Assembly: GCF_001482305.1 (NCBI RefSeq)
Contig: NZ_LOHP01000046.1
Location: 1-64,000 of the forward strand
Source of the DNA: Leucobacter sp. G161
Lineage (GTDB): Bacteria > Actinomycetota > Actinomycetes > Actinomycetales > Microbacteriaceae
Length of the DNA: 64,000 bases
Reading direction: 5' to 3'
Each line of letters starts with the position of its first letter. The first letter of the stretch is position 1. The position numbers and the translations under genes were made by a program. This document shows, one piece after another, positions 43,717 to 63,106 of the stretch. The notes below the pieces were generated by a model. That model was given only the letters and a program-made list of their open reading frames with translations. It was not told the DNA's origin and made no database searches.

Positions 43717-44946
43717 CTACGCTACCCGCACGGTATCGAGGTGCTCGGCGATACGACCGATCGCCTCTGCAAGCACGGTGACCTCCGGGAGTGTGACGAA
43801 GCGCAGGTGGTCTGGCGTCGGGAGGTTGAACCCACGGCCGTTGGTCACGAGCACGCGGGTCGCACGGAGAAGATCGATAACGAAGGCCTGATCGTCAGCG
43901 ATGGGGTACATGGTGGGGTCGAGCCGCGGGAACAGGTACATCGCGCCACCCGGCAGCTCGCAGCTCACGCCTGGGATCGCGGTGAGTAGCCGGTGCGCGG
44001 TGTTGCGTTGTTCGAGGAGCCTGCCGCCGGGGGCGCAGAGCGCATCGATCGACGACTCGATGCCGAGCGCCACCGGAATCGCGTACTGCGCTGGCGCGTT
44101 CGAGCACATCCGCATGTTCGCAAGCAGTGTGAGCCCTTCGAGGAAGTCCGCGGCGCGCGCCAGGTTCCCCGAGGCAACCAACCAGCCAGCCCGGTATCCG
44201 GCAACGCGCTGCGCCTTCGAGAGCCCGCTGAACGTCAGGCAGAGCGTTTCGGTGACGTGCAGTGCGGCGTGCTCGTGATTCACCCCGTCGTAGAGGATCC
44301 GATCGTAGATCTCGTCGGCCATGAGCACGAGCCCGTGCCGTTCGGCGATCGCCGCGAAGCCGCGCACGAGCTCTGGCGAGTACACCGCGCCCGTCGGGTT
44401 GTTCGGGTTGATGAGCACGATGCCACGGGTCTCCGGAGTGATGAGCGACTCGATCTCGGCGAGGTCTGGCATCCAGCCGTTCGATTCGTCGCACGGGTAG
44501 TGCACGGCTTTCCCACCCTGCAGCGTGACCTGCGCAGTCCACAGCGGGTAGTCGGGGGCCGGCACGAGGATCTCGTCGCCCCGGCTCACGAGCGCCTGCA
44601 GCACGAGCGAGATGAGCTCGCTCACCCCGTTACCGAGGAAGACGTTGTCCGGGGTGACACCCGCAACACCGATCCCGGTGTAGTGCTCGGCGACCGCCTC
44701 GCGGGCCGGGAGGATCCCGCGGGAGTCGGTGTAGCCCTGTGCGTGCGGGAGCGCGTCCCGCATCGCGTCGACGATCTCGGGTGGCGCTTCGAAGCCGAAC
44801 GGCGCCGGATTGCCGATGTTGAGCTTCAGGATCTGCTCGCCCGCGCGTTCGAGCCGCTCCGCTTCCTGGAGGATCGGCCCGCGCACGTCGTAGCGCACGC
44901 CGGCGAGCTTATTGGACTGGGTTATCTGTCGCGTCGTCGAGCTCAC
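43717..44946 (-). CDS. PLP-dependent aminotransferase (AlaA/AspC type)
   Basis: This 409-residue fold-type I aminotransferase has NIGNPAPFGFEAP near the start, LINPNNPTGAVYSPE and DEIYDRILYDG around the PLP ring, and FSGLSKAQRVAGYRAGW with the Schiff-base lysine. Sequence features are closest to AlaA, which makes alanine from pyruvate and glutamate. The start ATG 44946 is 97 bases downstream (minus direction) of the structured repeat element at 45043-45123, which could lie in its leader. Confidence 0.88.
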   Translation of the reverse strand: MSSTTRQITQSNKLAGVRYDVRGPILQEAERLERAGEQILKLNIGNPAPFGFEAPPEIVDAMRDALPHAQGYTDSRGILPAREAVAEHYTGIGVAGVTPDNVFLGNGVSELISLVLQALVSRGDEILVPAPDYPLWTAQVTLQGGKAVHYPCDESNGWMPDLAEIESLITPETRGIVLINPNNPTGAVYSPELVRGFAAIAERHGLVLMADEIYDRILYDGVNHEHAALHVTETLCLTFSGLSKAQRVAGYRAGWLVASGNLARAADFLEGLTLLANMRMCSNAPAQYAIPVALGIESSIDALCAPGGRLLEQRNTAHRLLTAIPGVSCELPGGAMYLFPRLDPTMYPIADDQAFVIDLLRATRVLVTNGRGFNLPTPDHLRFVTLPEVTVLAEAIGRIAEHLDTVRVA

Positions 44947-45042
44947 GGGGCGAGTTTACTCCCGTGTGTCTGTGCGATGCTGCGCACGCAGCGCCGAAAC
45001 GGGTGGGTGATGGCGCGAGGCAGGACGGCAGGCAGACCTTCT

Positions 45043-45123
45043 TCCCCACTGCCCCGAGTTATCTAGTCTGAGCCTTGTGCAGCCCAAACAAAGCTCATAC
45101 AGGAAAAATCGGGGCAGTGGGGA
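45043..45123. ncRNA. Structured repeat element, copy A
   Basis: A perfect 15-bp inverted repeat (45043-45057 with 45109-45123) encloses a 51-base core. Inside, TGAGCCTTGT (45069-45078) pairs with ACAAAGCTCA (45088-45097), with one mismatch and a 9-base loop GCAGCCCAA. The core is about 70% identical to copy B at 53159-53245, which also has paired outer arms of different sequence. It sits between the aminotransferase start and the DUF4097 gene. Strand and function are unknown; no T-tract follows, so a terminator is unlikely. Confidence 0.55.
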
Positions 45124-45171
45124 TGGAGCAGGGGCAGGGGCACAGGGGCAGGCCGGGGCCCACGGGGTGGC

Positions 45172-46014
45172 TTAGCGTGTCTCGGAGAGCGTGATGTCGC
45201 CGAGGTCCACCTTCGCGGAAATCCGGTTGGGGGCACCGGGAGCCGTGTTGAGCTCGTTGTCGAGGCTTCCCGATGCGCGCGCGGGGGTCACGTCATAGAT
45301 GCCAGCCGGCACTGCGAGATCGATCGATCCAGCACTCACCTTGAGGGTCACATCGCGCGGCGGATCCCCCTTGAGGACGAGCGCGAGGTCTCCGAGCGAG
45401 ACCTCGGCATTTACGGTGGCTGCGCCAGTAATCTCGCCCTCGAACGTGCCCATTCCGATGACGAGGTCAAGGTCCGTTGCCGTGCCGCTGATGAAGGCAT
45501 CGCCCGCGTCAACCTGCACATCGAGCTCACCGAAGGTGCCGTCTGTCCTGACGCTGCCGACGCCGATCGTGATGTCTGCGTCGAGGGCTTGCGTCGCGAA
45601 TGCGCGCGGCAGCGTGAGGGTTGCCGTCACCTGCTGCCCGCGCGTCGACGGGCAGACGCCGAAGAAGCAGAATCCTGAGTTGGCGTTTGGGGCGCGCACC
45701 ACGAGTTCATCCCCGTCTCGGCCGAACTGCCACCGCTCGGCGGAGCCACCGGTCGCCGTCAGCGTCGCTTCAGTGACGCTGCCGTATTCGAGCCGGAGGT
45801 CGGCGACGCCAACGTTCAGGTCCAGGCCGGTGATTCCGGTGGCGTCAACGGGCGCCAGTGCGCTTGCCTGCGTGGTGAGGGCATCGGCCCGCTGCGAGGA
45901 CGCTGCCATCGCAAACGCGGCAGAGGCGCCGAGCCCGAGCAGAACAACACCGCCAACGACGGCGGTCGCAATCGCGATGCCCCGCCGTCCGGAGGTGGGT
46001 GGGTTCGTAGTCAT
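45172..46014 (-). CDS. DUF4097-like membrane-anchored beta-repeat protein
   Basis: This 280-residue protein has one membrane helix (about 15-37) followed by a beta-rich extracellular region. The region has repeated short strands of the putative-adhesin/DUF4097 type (LDLNVGVADLRLEYG; ADITIGVGSVRTDGTFGELDVQVDAGDAFISG; LVIGMGTFEGEITGAATVNAEVSLGDLALVLKG). It overlaps the response regulator by four bases and is the last gene of a kinase-regulator-DUF4097 operon, like envelope-stress (LiaFSR-type) loci where a membrane protein modulates the kinase. Confidence 0.75.
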   Translation of the reverse strand: MTTNPPTSGRRGIAIATAVVGGVVLLGLGASAAFAMAASSQRADALTTQASALAPVDATGITGLDLNVGVADLRLEYGSVTEATLTATGGSAERWQFGRDGDELVVRAPNANSGFCFFGVCPSTRGQQVTATLTLPRAFATQALDADITIGVGSVRTDGTFGELDVQVDAGDAFISGTATDLDLVIGMGTFEGEITGAATVNAEVSLGDLALVLKGDPPRDVTLKVSAGSIDLAVPAGIYDVTPARASGSLDNELNTAPGAPNRISAKVDLGDITLSETR

Positions 46015-52121: not shown

Positions 52122-52165
52122 GAGAGGGGCGGGGAGGATCATTTCTGATCCCACCCGCCCCTCTC
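52122..52165 (-). terminator. Terminator of rpmB-rpmG-rpsN
   Basis: GAGAGGGGCGGG (52122-52133) and CCCGCCCCTCTC (52154-52165) form a perfect 12-bp stem, with an additional inner GATC/GATC pairing. It lies 35 bases past the rpsN stop on the minus strand. No other gene lies in 51927-52199. Confidence 0.7.
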
Positions 52166-52507: not shown

Positions 52508-52675
52508 TTAGCGCTCCTCTCGGAAGTCAACGTGCTTACGGACAACCGGATCGTACTTCTTGAGCACGAGGCGGTCGGGGGTGTTGCGACGGTTCTTGCG
52601 GGTCACGTAGGTGAACCCGGTTCCTGCCGTCGACTTCAGCTTGATGATCGGACGTACGTCCTTGTCCTTAGCCAT
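52508..52675 (-). CDS. rpmG: 50S ribosomal protein L33, zinc-free form
   Basis: The product has 55 residues and is short: [20 protein letters not shown] to the end HVDFREER, with the typical [21 protein letters not shown] core. There are no cysteines, so it is the C-minus form. Its ATG overlaps the rpmB stop by one base (TAATG), and rpsN starts two bases after its stop. Confidence 0.95.
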
Positions 52676-52911
52676 TAGAACTTCACCCCGCGCTTCTTGA
52701 GGTCAGAGACCACTGCCTCGATGCCACGTGCATCGATGACCTTGATGCCCTTCACCGAAAGGGTGAGGGTCACCTTGCGGCCGAGTGACGGCACAAAGTA
52801 AGTCTTCTTCTGGATATTCGGATCGAACCGACGCTTGGTGCGACGGTGCGAGTGTGAAATGTTGTGTCCGAAGCCGGGAACGGCGCCGGTCACCTGGCAC
52901 ACTGCTGCCAT
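52675..52911 (-). CDS. rpmB: 50S ribosomal protein L28
   Basis: This 78-residue protein starts at ATG 52911 ([20 protein letters not shown]) with AGAGGAAAC before it. The core [16 protein letters not shown] is typical of L28. It has only one cysteine, so it cannot form the four-cysteine zinc site of C-plus L28. It is the first gene of the cluster. A longer reading to 53013 has no support. The upstream region to 53283 contains a hairpin, a tandem repeat and structured element B. Confidence 0.95.
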
Positions 52912-53065
52912 GATGTTTCCTCTCATACCGTGAGACCGGACGGCCTCACCCAAGATTTCTTGTCTGCGAGATCCTGCCGAGGCACTCCTCAACAAACGGT
53001 TCCCGCGGTACATGCACTGGGACGGCGCACGACCAAGGGTTAAGCTTACGGGTTTTGTGCCGTTC

Positions 53066-53087
53066 GCGCAACGCCCGAGCGTTGCGC
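53066..53087. other. Perfect hairpin in the rpmB-trhO intergenic region
   Basis: GCGCAACGC-CCGA-GCGTTGCGC is a 9-bp stem with a 4-base loop, about 155 bases upstream of rpmB. There is no T-tract on either side. It could be part of the rpmB leader; no function is assigned. Confidence 0.5.
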
Positions 53088-53150
53088 TGCTGACTGGCTG
53101 GCTGGCTGGCGGCCGGGCTGACTGGCTGACTGGCTGCCGGGCTGAGGGCC
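53088..53150. repeat. Imperfect tandem repeat of CTGACTGG/CTGGCTGG units
   Basis: About 60 bases are built from 4-base GGCT/GACT units (for example GGCTGACTGGCTGACTGGCT at 53117-53136). This is a low-complexity slippage-prone tract between rpmB and trhO. It is not coding. Confidence 0.7.
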
Positions 53151-53158
53151 GCCCTCAC

Positions 53159-53245
53159 CGCTCCTCTCCCCCTCGTGTAATCTCTTCCGACCCTTGTACA
53201 GGCCGAATAGGGCTCAGTTCCAATAAAACGGGTGAGAGAGGAGCG
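53159..53245. ncRNA. Structured repeat element, copy B
   Basis: Outer arms CGCTCCTCTC (53159-53168) and GAGAGGAGCG (53236-53245) pair perfectly. Inside, CGACCCTTGT (53188-53197) faces ATAGGGCTCA (53207-53216) across a 9-base loop ACAGGCCGA; most positions pair, two by wobble. The 46-base central stretch matches copy A (45043-45123) without gaps at about 33 positions, while the outer arms are unrelated in sequence. It ends 39 bases before trhO. Function and strand are unknown. Confidence 0.55.
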
Positions 53246-53283
53246 CGGAAGGCGCAGCGCCCCGCCCAGCTCGAGGCCGTACC

Positions 53284-54234
53284 ATGGGAAGCGTGAGCCA
53301 CCCCAAGATTCTCCTGTACTACGCGTTTGCCCCCGTGAGTGATCCCGAGGCGGTGCGGCTGTGGCAGCGCGAGCTCTGCGAGTCGCTTGGCCTGCGCGGC
53401 CGCATCATCATCTCCGAGCACGGCATCAACGGCACCGTCGGTGGCGAGATCGACGCGTGCAAGCAGTACCTCAAGCGCACGCGCGAGTACGGGCCGTTCT
53501 CAGGCCTCGACGTGAAGTGGAGTGAGGGCACCGGCTTCGATGCGGTCGCACCGACCACCCTCAAGGGCGTCGATCGCAGCGTCCCTTGGCAGGCAATCTC
53601 AGATTTCCCGAAGCTCAGCGTGAAGGTGCGCGACGAGCTCGTTGCCTTCGGCATCCCCGAGGAGACGGTCGTCGACGAGACTGGTGTTGTCGGCGGCGGC
53701 ACCCATCTCTCGCCCGAAAAGGTGAACGAGCTCGTTGCGGAACGCGGCGACGATGTCGTGTTCTTCGACGGCCGCAACGCGTGGGAGGCCGACATCGGCC
53801 GCTTCAAGGGCGCTGTCGTTCCCGACGTGAAGACCACACACGACTTCATCGCGCAGATCGAGTCCGGCGCCTTCGACGACATCAAGGGCAAGCCGATCGT
53901 CACCTACTGCACGGGCGGGATCCGCTGCGAGATCCTCTCCGCGGCGATGGTTGCGCGCGGATTCGAAGAGGTCTACCAGATCGACGGCGGTATCGTCCGT
54001 TACGGCGAAGCCTTCGGCAACGACGGCCTCTGGGAGGGCTCGCTCGCGGTGTTCGACGGTCGCGAGGCGATGGACTTCGCGCCGGGCGCTTCGGTCATCG
54101 GCCGCTGCACGGTGTGCAGTACCGCGACCTCACACCTCGTCGACTGCGCGGAAAACTCCTGCCGTACGCGCTTCGTCGCGTGCGCCAGCCACGACGCCCC
54201 GCGCTGCGACGCGCACGCGCTCACGACCGCATAA
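53284..54234 (+). CDS. trhO: tRNA uridine-34 hydroxylase, rhodanese family
   Basis: This 316-residue protein has the TrhO (UPF0176) layout. An N-terminal acylphosphatase-like domain ([28 protein letters not shown]) is followed by a rhodanese domain with [19 protein letters not shown] and the catalytic loop [10 protein letters not shown]209. A C-terminal zinc-type region carries C-x2-C pairs ([16 protein letters not shown]). It makes 5-hydroxyuridine at the wobble position of tRNAs. GTG 53293 is an alternative start. Element B lies in its leader. Confidence 0.92.
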
Positions 54235-54257
54235 CGATCGAACGGAAGAGACACAGA

Positions 54258-54291
54258 CGAAGCGCCCGGAGGAGTTCCTCCGGGCGCTTCG
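54258..54291. terminator. Bidirectional terminator between trhO and the ABC-2 permease
   Basis: CGAAGCGCCCGGAGGA and TCCTCCGGGCGCTTCG form a perfect 16-bp stem with GT at the tip. It is followed on the plus strand by TTGTTGG. It lies between convergent genes and probably serves both. Confidence 0.8.
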
Positions 54292-54312
54292 TTGTTGGTG
54301 CTGCGTCAGCGG

Positions 54313-62401: not shown

Positions 62402-62430
62402 TCGGCCATTCTTCCAGGCTTTCGGGGTCG

Positions 62431-63021
62431 CTATTCGCAGCCAACCCCATCACCGTCCCGGTCGAGGTGCCTACCGTAGCCAGGGTCGCCTGCGTACACC
62501 GGAGCTGCACCCGCGTTGCGAGCAGCGGTGCAGTTGTCGAAGTACGCCGCGGCAGGTTGCGGCGCCGGGGCGGCGGGCGCCTGCGCTTCGGGGGCGGCCT
62601 GCTTCGGGGCCGCAAACGGGATGGGCTCCGGGACAGCGGCTGCCTGAGCCTCAGCTGCTGCGGCTGCCGCTTCGAGGTCACGAACCTGCGCTTGAAGCTC
62701 CTCGACCTGGGCGGTGAGCGCTCGCACGTTCTCCTCCCGATCGCTGAGGGACTCAGTGCGTTCGTCGAGTGCACTCGTTGCCACCCGCAGGTCCTCCACC
62801 GTGGACGTGTGCTTGGCCTCGAGTGTGGCAACGTCGGTTGTCAGCGACTGCTCGGCGAGTCGGAGTTCGCTGATCTCAGTGTGAGCGCCGGTCGCGGAGG
62901 CCCCTGCTCCCAACGCGAGGCCGACAACCCCCGCAAGGATCGGGATCCCGAGGGTCTTCAGTGTGTTTCGCTTGCCGGGCCGATCTTCCGCCACATACGG
63001 CGTCCCATCGTGGAACTGCAT
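62431..63021 (-). CDS. Excalibur-domain protein with coiled coil
   Basis: This 196-residue protein has a membrane helix at about 23-45 (ILAGVVGLALGAGASATGA), an extracellular coiled coil (about 50-115, LRLAEQSLTTDVATLEAKHTSTVEDL onward), an Ala/Pro linker, and a C-terminal Excalibur domain (FDNCTAARNAGAAPVYAG and HLDRDGDGVGCE). DxDxDGxxCE binds calcium in this family. It is probably a cell-surface protein; ligand unknown. Confidence 0.88.
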   Translation of the reverse strand: MQFHDGTPYVAEDRPGKRNTLKTLGIPILAGVVGLALGAGASATGAHTEISELRLAEQSLTTDVATLEAKHTSTVEDLRVATSALDERTESLSDREENVRALTAQVEELQAQVRDLEAAAAAAEAQAAAVPEPIPFAAPKQAAPEAQAPAAPAPQPAAAYFDNCTAARNAGAAPVYAGDPGYGRHLDRDGDGVGCE

Positions 63022-63106
63022 GCGCCATACTCCTTCGCGAGCACGCCGCGCGAGATGCCCGGCAACCGAATCTCAGGCTCACAGTAGAGACATTGCAGAG
63101 AAAAAG

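Follow-up and report, generated by a model that had tools for sequence, protein, structure and literature searches.

A dispersed palindromic repeat of about 85 bp in the intergenic DNA of Leucobacter, probably a non-autonomous element of REPIN-like or bare MITE type

MITEs and the ERIC, RUP and Correia-type repeats are imperfect intergenic palindromes of about 80-130 bp and are non-autonomous. The ends of Tn7, Mu and Tn5053 each contain two direct transposase-binding sites of about 19-22 bp, and the two ends are inverted. REPs and REPINs are dispersed intergenic palindromes composed of inverted like halves, each REP half being a short hairpin. They form lineage-specific families, are vertically inherited, carry a GTAG foot and are accompanied by RAYT tyrosine transposases, and REPs reach high copy number. 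CGTC-tagged palindromic repeats have stems of 8-9 bp and end in a CGTC tag. They are reported from five phyla, Actinobacteria not among them, and their spread without a dedicated transposase is raised there as an open question (PMC3733652). Within the literature text that the search covered, no paper on a palindromic repeat or MITE family in Leucobacter or Microbacteriaceae was found.

The repeat described here was found in Leucobacter sp. G161 (the own genome, G000) and in relatives of the same genus. It is best explained, with somewhat better than even confidence, as a family of non-coding, dispersed, non-autonomous palindromic DNA repeats that are REPIN-like or bare MITEs. As in MITEs, it has inverted repeats at both ends, is non-coding and is dispersed; as in REPs and REPINs, it is a dispersed intergenic inverted doublet, lineage-specific in sequence and vertically inherited. 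Unlike a REP, each half consists of two direct units of 18-19 bp, no GTAG foot is seen, and there are about 40 copies. A Y1 transposase gene (PF01797) was found in 0 of 25 genomes, including the own genome, G006 and G015, in a set that excluded G017, G020, G070 and G074; the control was positive in 5 of 14. In contrast to MITEs and the ERIC, RUP and Correia types, neither a target duplication nor a parent insertion sequence was found. Among 81 elements, nothing exceeded the permutation null for duplications of 2-9 nt, and old duplications could have decayed. No arm occurs outside an element at up to three mismatches in the own draft assembly of 109 contigs. The anatomy resembles two transposon ends of two tandem units each, set back to back. 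It differs from Tn7, Mu and Tn5053 in having no cargo between the ends and no target duplication, and such a transposase was not identified. The likeness to CGTC repeats lies in the palindromy and in the lack of a dedicated transposase reported for them (PMC3733652).

The window is the whole stretch of 64,000 nucleotides that was analyzed (contig NZ_LOHP01000046.1, positions 1 to 64,000), and it contains two copies, A and B. Both are placed between called genes, as the first-pass annotation had said. The features at the two loci are as follows.

43717-44946, minus strand: aminotransferase class I/II gene (PF00155) flanking copy A
44964-45186, no strand: stretch at copy A including GC-rich flanks; 18 bp in G003, about 10 bp in G006 and 23 bp in G020, against about 206-221 bp here
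45041-45125, no strand: copy A, whole quasi-palindrome (about 85 bp); model match 45044-45121, ends from the palindromy profile
45041-45077, plus strand: left arm of copy A, two units of about 19 bp each
45078-45088, no strand: centre of copy A, 11 bases separating the arms
45089-45125, minus strand: right arm of copy A, inverted
45052-45077 and 45089-45114: arms of copy A as matched by the arm pattern
45172-46014, minus strand: gene for a DUF4097 protein (PF13349) flanking copy A
52675-52917, minus strand: ribosomal protein L28 gene (PF00830) flanking copy B
53051-53277, no strand: stretch at copy B including simple repeats; 52 bp in G003, about 37 bp in G006 and 13 bp in G020, against 188-227 bp here
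53089-53145, no strand: GCTG-type short tandem repeats adjoining copy B
53160-53244, no strand: copy B, whole quasi-palindrome (about 85 bp); model match 53163-53240, ends from the palindromy profile
53160-53196, plus strand: left arm of copy B, two units of about 19 bp each
53208-53244, minus strand: right arm of copy B, inverted
53171-53196 and 53208-53233: arms of copy B as matched by the arm pattern
53284-54234, plus strand: gene for a UPF0176/rhodanese-domain protein (PF17773, PF00581) flanking copy B

The ungapped match of 46 bases first noticed between the two, starting at TGAGC on the minus strand, is real: 33 of 46 positions are identical (45052-45097 against 53171-53216), and the similarity continues over 78 columns. 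Copy A itself aside, copy B is the best match of the A core in the window; the best unrelated place reaches 26 of 46, and the top score among 40 random sequences of 64 kb from a first-order Markov model is 27. The range originally given for copy A, 45043-45123, is slightly short, and palindromy extends about 42 nt to each side of the axis. The shared inner hairpin geometry is found intact in A, where the 10-position stem is complete, and is looser in B, where 3 of the 10 pairs are non-standard and the best minus-strand fold by RNAfold lacks this stem. The RNAfold z-score is -6.3 for copy A and about -2.1 for copy B on either strand. The outer stem is 13 bp long and, in B, has four complementary double changes and two mispairs. 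The A/B stem counts are equalled or exceeded by 19 of 500 shuffles. The loop RCAGSCCRA reads as described on the plus strand of A and B; other copies have different loops.

The window also contains ordinary short near-perfect intergenic hairpins, terminator-like in appearance, at 54257-54292 and 52122-52165, the former with a similar hairpin in G003 and G020. G003 and G020 lack about 650 bp at 62419-63105, which look coding on the minus strand.

Searching with a covariance model of copies A and B alone (R1), as the annotation had proposed, gave 70 rows in the own genome at E up to 10. They correspond to 38 distinct places, most of which score on both strands; relatives were matched after retraining. 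The weakest places are non-significant by R1 and receive E-values of 3e-4 or better from R2, a model for which only own copies served as the training set. An arm scan with a degenerate pattern, allowing up to three mismatches, gave 62 matches, compared with 2 for the reversed control. Fifty of these arms form 25 pairs spaced exactly 37 nt from start to start. Each of the other 12 lies inside an element found by R1, with the partner arm over the mismatch limit. The arm pattern contributes two further places (C29, C67) and R2 one more (C60:273052, E 0.0019), bringing the own genome to about 41 copies. The idea that A and B are two hairpins alike by chance was discarded on the 38 R1 places; with the excess of arm matches and a random maximum of 27 of 46, its probability is negligible, and nothing but the low copy number within the window speaks for it.

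The element is about 85 bp long. In own and other copies, palindromy is sharply lost, down to background, once the distance from the axis exceeds 41-42 nt. Each arm is composed of two direct repeats of 18-19 bp, giving a layout of four units, D1 D2 / D2' D1'. At a shift of 19 bp, the fraction of letters repeated within an arm is 0.43 in G000, 0.68 in G074, 0.52 in G070, 0.57 in G015, 0.54 in G020 and 0.57 in G006; at a shift of 18 bp it is 0.81 in G017 and 0.73 in Leucobacter ruminantium. The remaining shifts score 0.10-0.39, except for 0.50 at a neighbouring shift in G006, which is represented by two copies only. The direct repeat is thus found in all eight genomes sampled, and all species groups have this layout in common, with different letters. 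Loops are not conserved across copies. By eye, element ends in the own and other genomes begin 5'-C(A/G), two copies (L176, L178) have extra tandem units in their arms, and no common GTAG or CGTC foot is seen at the ends. Likewise by eye, the copies show no attC-type R'/R'' boxes and lie outside cassette arrays. Short tandem repeats adjoin many of the palindromes in the own and other species (window 53089-53145; L173, L175).

Genes were called with a crude codon-score caller that assigned 72% of 464 kb as coding and missed some genes. Overlap with any called gene is at most 35 bp at all places. Among 40 own places, 22 lie between convergent genes, 16 between tandem genes, 1 between divergent genes and 1 at a contig edge; the 41 places in other species give 23, 14, 3 and 1, respectively. 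An earlier, cruder caller placed 38 own copies as 22, 13, 2 and 1. Gene pairs in the own sample, which was partly picked around elements and in which convergent gaps make up 23% of the intergenic bases, include 57 convergent, 226 tandem and 59 divergent. The convergent bias is therefore 45 of 79 copies against 57 of 342 background pairs (p 1.8e-12), and 22 of 39 for own copies only (p 2e-7). At tandem sites, 25 of 30 copies are nearer the upstream stop, and at some sites the element almost spans the gap separating two stop codons. Neighbouring genes recur only as common families and orthologous neighbourhoods, by eye, which counts against a mobile element; the largest neighbour cluster, of 13 loci, is ABC transporter-like by eye.

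This placement is what would be expected of bidirectional transcription terminators or 3'-end insulators that serve the host and are selected between convergent genes. The convergent excess, the proximity to upstream stops and the nearly filled stop-to-stop gaps all favor such a role. A U-tract follows the hairpin on only 1 of 162 strands, at one of four offsets, and a C-rich, G-poor entry region of the Rho type appears only as a slight C excess in the 20 nt adjoining the element. With sibling genomes that have 0-58 bp and no counterpart at several of the sites, and with 43 of 54 Leucobacter genomes lacking a match, a terminator role is unlikely. The Rfam search gave no match above gathering score, and the matches below it were mostly to eukaryotic miRNA hairpin models.

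The first-pass annotation had offered two readings, a small non-autonomous repeat and an undescribed structured RNA; the former is supported and the latter is not. A structured non-coding RNA or mRNA element would account for the stable predicted fold of copy A and for double changes in the stems. On three of five measures, none of 500 shuffles reaches the covariation counts, which come from an alignment that used both strands of each palindrome and was fitted to the structure. Yet most places score on both strands, and the loops vary. At tandem sites there are 61 G-U against 50 A-C mispairs on the transcript strand (p 0.34), and at convergent sites 82 G-U against 102 A-C. We read the symmetry as a property of the DNA because there is no G-U excess, U-tract, Rfam family or fixed loop, and an RNA is very improbable.

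R2 gave full-length matches in 5 of 54 genomes of the genus, including the own genome, at E up to 0.01. A model trained on copies from five genomes (R3) matched 11 of the 54, and the other 43 have no R3 match at E up to 0.01. In the training genomes, R3 returned 82 rows for G000, 78 for G015, 45 for G070, 36 for G074 and 36 for G020; in the others, 12 for G017, 10 for G006, 10 for G069, 4 for G008, 2 for G025 and 2 for G007. There are about two rows per place, and the number of places is the number of rows halved. A family confined to a single genome had been considered, as R1 gave two marginal matches besides the own genome among 60 genomes, and an exact pattern gave 0 matches elsewhere. The retrained models overturned this, and the exact pattern fits just 5 of 36 own elements.

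Among 398 sampled genomes of the bacterial family, with 11 candidates scored per genome, only G000, G017 and G352 matched at E up to 0.001. G352 belongs to another genus, and its single place (L180:1501-1578) is a strong palindrome scoring 44 bits with R3, whose letters look unrelated to the Leucobacter groups. A G017-type pattern matched 24 stretches, five of which are Leucobacter ruminantium loci that look palindromic by eye. By model, L215 is clear (24.9 bits), L213, L210 and L221 score 11.8-14.8 bits, and L223 has no match. L224, one of the 19 other stretches, was viewed and is not palindromic; the rest were taken as chance. The L. ruminantium locus L210 and the own locus L148 are 74-88% identical over 422-2253 bp.

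By sequence, the copies fall into five groups: G000; G074; G015 with G070; G020 with G006; and G017 with L. ruminantium. Based on 38, 4, 11, 17, 6, 3, 2 and 4 copies, mean similarity is 0.60-0.84 within a genome or sister pair and 0.34-0.57 across groups, compared with 0.37 for shuffled letters. The G017/L. ruminantium group is 0.34-0.48 similar to the others, near the shuffled baseline, and its kinship with them therefore rests on the model and the layout. Copy A is unmatched in phage and plasmid collections, as are three copies searched in plasmids and two subfamily patterns searched in viral contigs. One viral match (L111) is a single arm in which no inverted partner was seen and was dismissed as chance. 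A look-alike hairpin of similar layout in G020 (L040:1378-1454) was kept out of the family; it has one strong counterpart (89%, G006) among 40 genomes and is apparently single copy in each.

A host role as chromosomal protein-binding sites, of nucleoid, segregation or gyrase type, would explain four spaced sites of 18-19 bp distributed along the chromosome, a fixed four-unit layout in every group and the constant spacing in the own genome. Such a role fits poorly with sequences specific to each lineage, with the many Leucobacter genomes that lack the element and with positions that vary among siblings, and it is quite unlikely.

Sibling genomes were compared at the sites of own copies. At A and B, the difference (about 175-200 bp) exceeds the length of the element, roughly 90-115 bp of additional low-complexity sequence surrounding the copies; no clean insertion is therefore seen, which counts against a mobile element. 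Ten further own sites were compared and seven were readable; C68, C52 and C46:131632 were left out, as both flanks are not close together in the siblings. The gaps at C69 and C51 are short in each of the three siblings, -1 to 17 bp by extrapolation. Sites C84 and C77 are 11-58 bp in G003 and G006 and have a palindrome in G020. Site C61, read in G020 only, has a palindrome there. Site C74 has a palindrome in G020 and, in G006, 106 bp without a model match. At C1, each of the three siblings has 265-342 bp, in which other palindromes and repeats can be made out by eye; the sibling sites are not empty there, and this was counted against a mobile element.

Of the G020 palindromes, those at C77 (L190, 24.8 bits) and C74 (L205, 30.2 bits) belong to the family by model and that at C61 (L194) by eye only; that at C84 (L189) looks unrelated. 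The own and G020 elements at C77 and C74 are no closer than other pairs. This makes some of the sites either hot spots or old ones with turned-over sequence. L189, L191, L192 and L193 are other palindromes with tandem repeats that stand in siblings at own-element sites.

Five sites are common to G015 and G070 by flank comparison of 17 and 11 sampled copies, and in these sister species the sites are shared by descent. Their same-site elements are 0.71-0.85 alike, compared with 0.65 for other pairs, and from 0 to 31 of 186 other pairs reach the same-site similarity. The own copy C78:81688 and L258 of G070 occupy a common site with a similarity of 0.61 against 0.49. The own copy C17:4106 and L263 of G020 also occupy a common site, and the sequence is not shared. 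Across 200 paired positions in the five ortholog pairs, 23 are changed on both arms, whereas 10.4 would be expected if the changes were independent, and 13 of the 23 are complementary. A further 36 one-sided changes create or destroy a pair, which counts against the mobile-element explanation. In L167/L175, three adjacent changes are complementary. Such block changes are compatible with template switching between arms or with a conversion event in which another copy is the donor, and would also arise under selection for symmetry.

Local repeat dynamics, in which slippage and template switching form palindromes in place without mobility, would also produce block-wise double changes. Short tandem repeats beside several copies, the extra units in the arms of L176 and L178, and the other palindromes seen by eye at the same sibling sites are all in keeping with it. 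It leaves the shared sequence and spacing at dozens of unrelated sites unexplained and is improbable.

The non-autonomous repeat is the favored explanation. The absence of copies from relatives, or of compensatory changes, had been named as telling against the element; relatives are matched and double changes are seen. About 41 own copies, relatives with the same layout, short sibling sites and double arm changes argue for it, and we infer mobility because of the copy number, the lineage-specific sequence and the short sibling sites. Transposition itself, the moving enzyme and any host function are putative. Each unit of 18-19 bp may be a binding site for a transposase or recombinase acting in trans, and the inverted pair of halves would be the entire mobile unit. 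New copies would persist mostly downstream of genes and most of all in convergent gaps, where they may do the least harm or which may be targeted. Once placed, copies would be inherited vertically. Selection could keep the arms alike, or arm-to-arm conversion could do so, with templates switched at the hairpin. Lineages would then drift to sequences of their own, with unit length, spacing and symmetry nearly fixed.

A more specific class is tentatively proposed, as a possibility that we consider rather doubtful. The elements would be bare inverted transposon ends with two putative enzyme-binding units of 18-19 bp each, moved without target duplication by a putative actinobacterial enzyme outside the Y1/HUH type. 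Rapid co-evolution of enzyme and element would leave every Leucobacter lineage with a sequence of its own, carried by a four-unit frame that hardly changes. The missing enzyme and arm conversion are directly testable in this genus because the family combines a nearly fixed geometry with lineage-specific sequence, occupies both shared and unshared sites and shows visible co-change of arms, in a genus of which at least 54 species are sequenced.

Other intergenic repeats were observed in the same genome. A second palindromic family of about 85 bp, unrelated in sequence, occurs at six places in the own sequence sampled (L060:3107-3206, L148:10636-10732, L058:3416-3512, L143:19330-19416, L054:2935-3033 and L151:11805-11883); 160 kb of sequence from G003 and G020 contain no copy of it. 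A third common intergenic piece of 40-70 bp lies near some elements (L148:10786-10855, L058:3338-3393 and L054:3104-3145).
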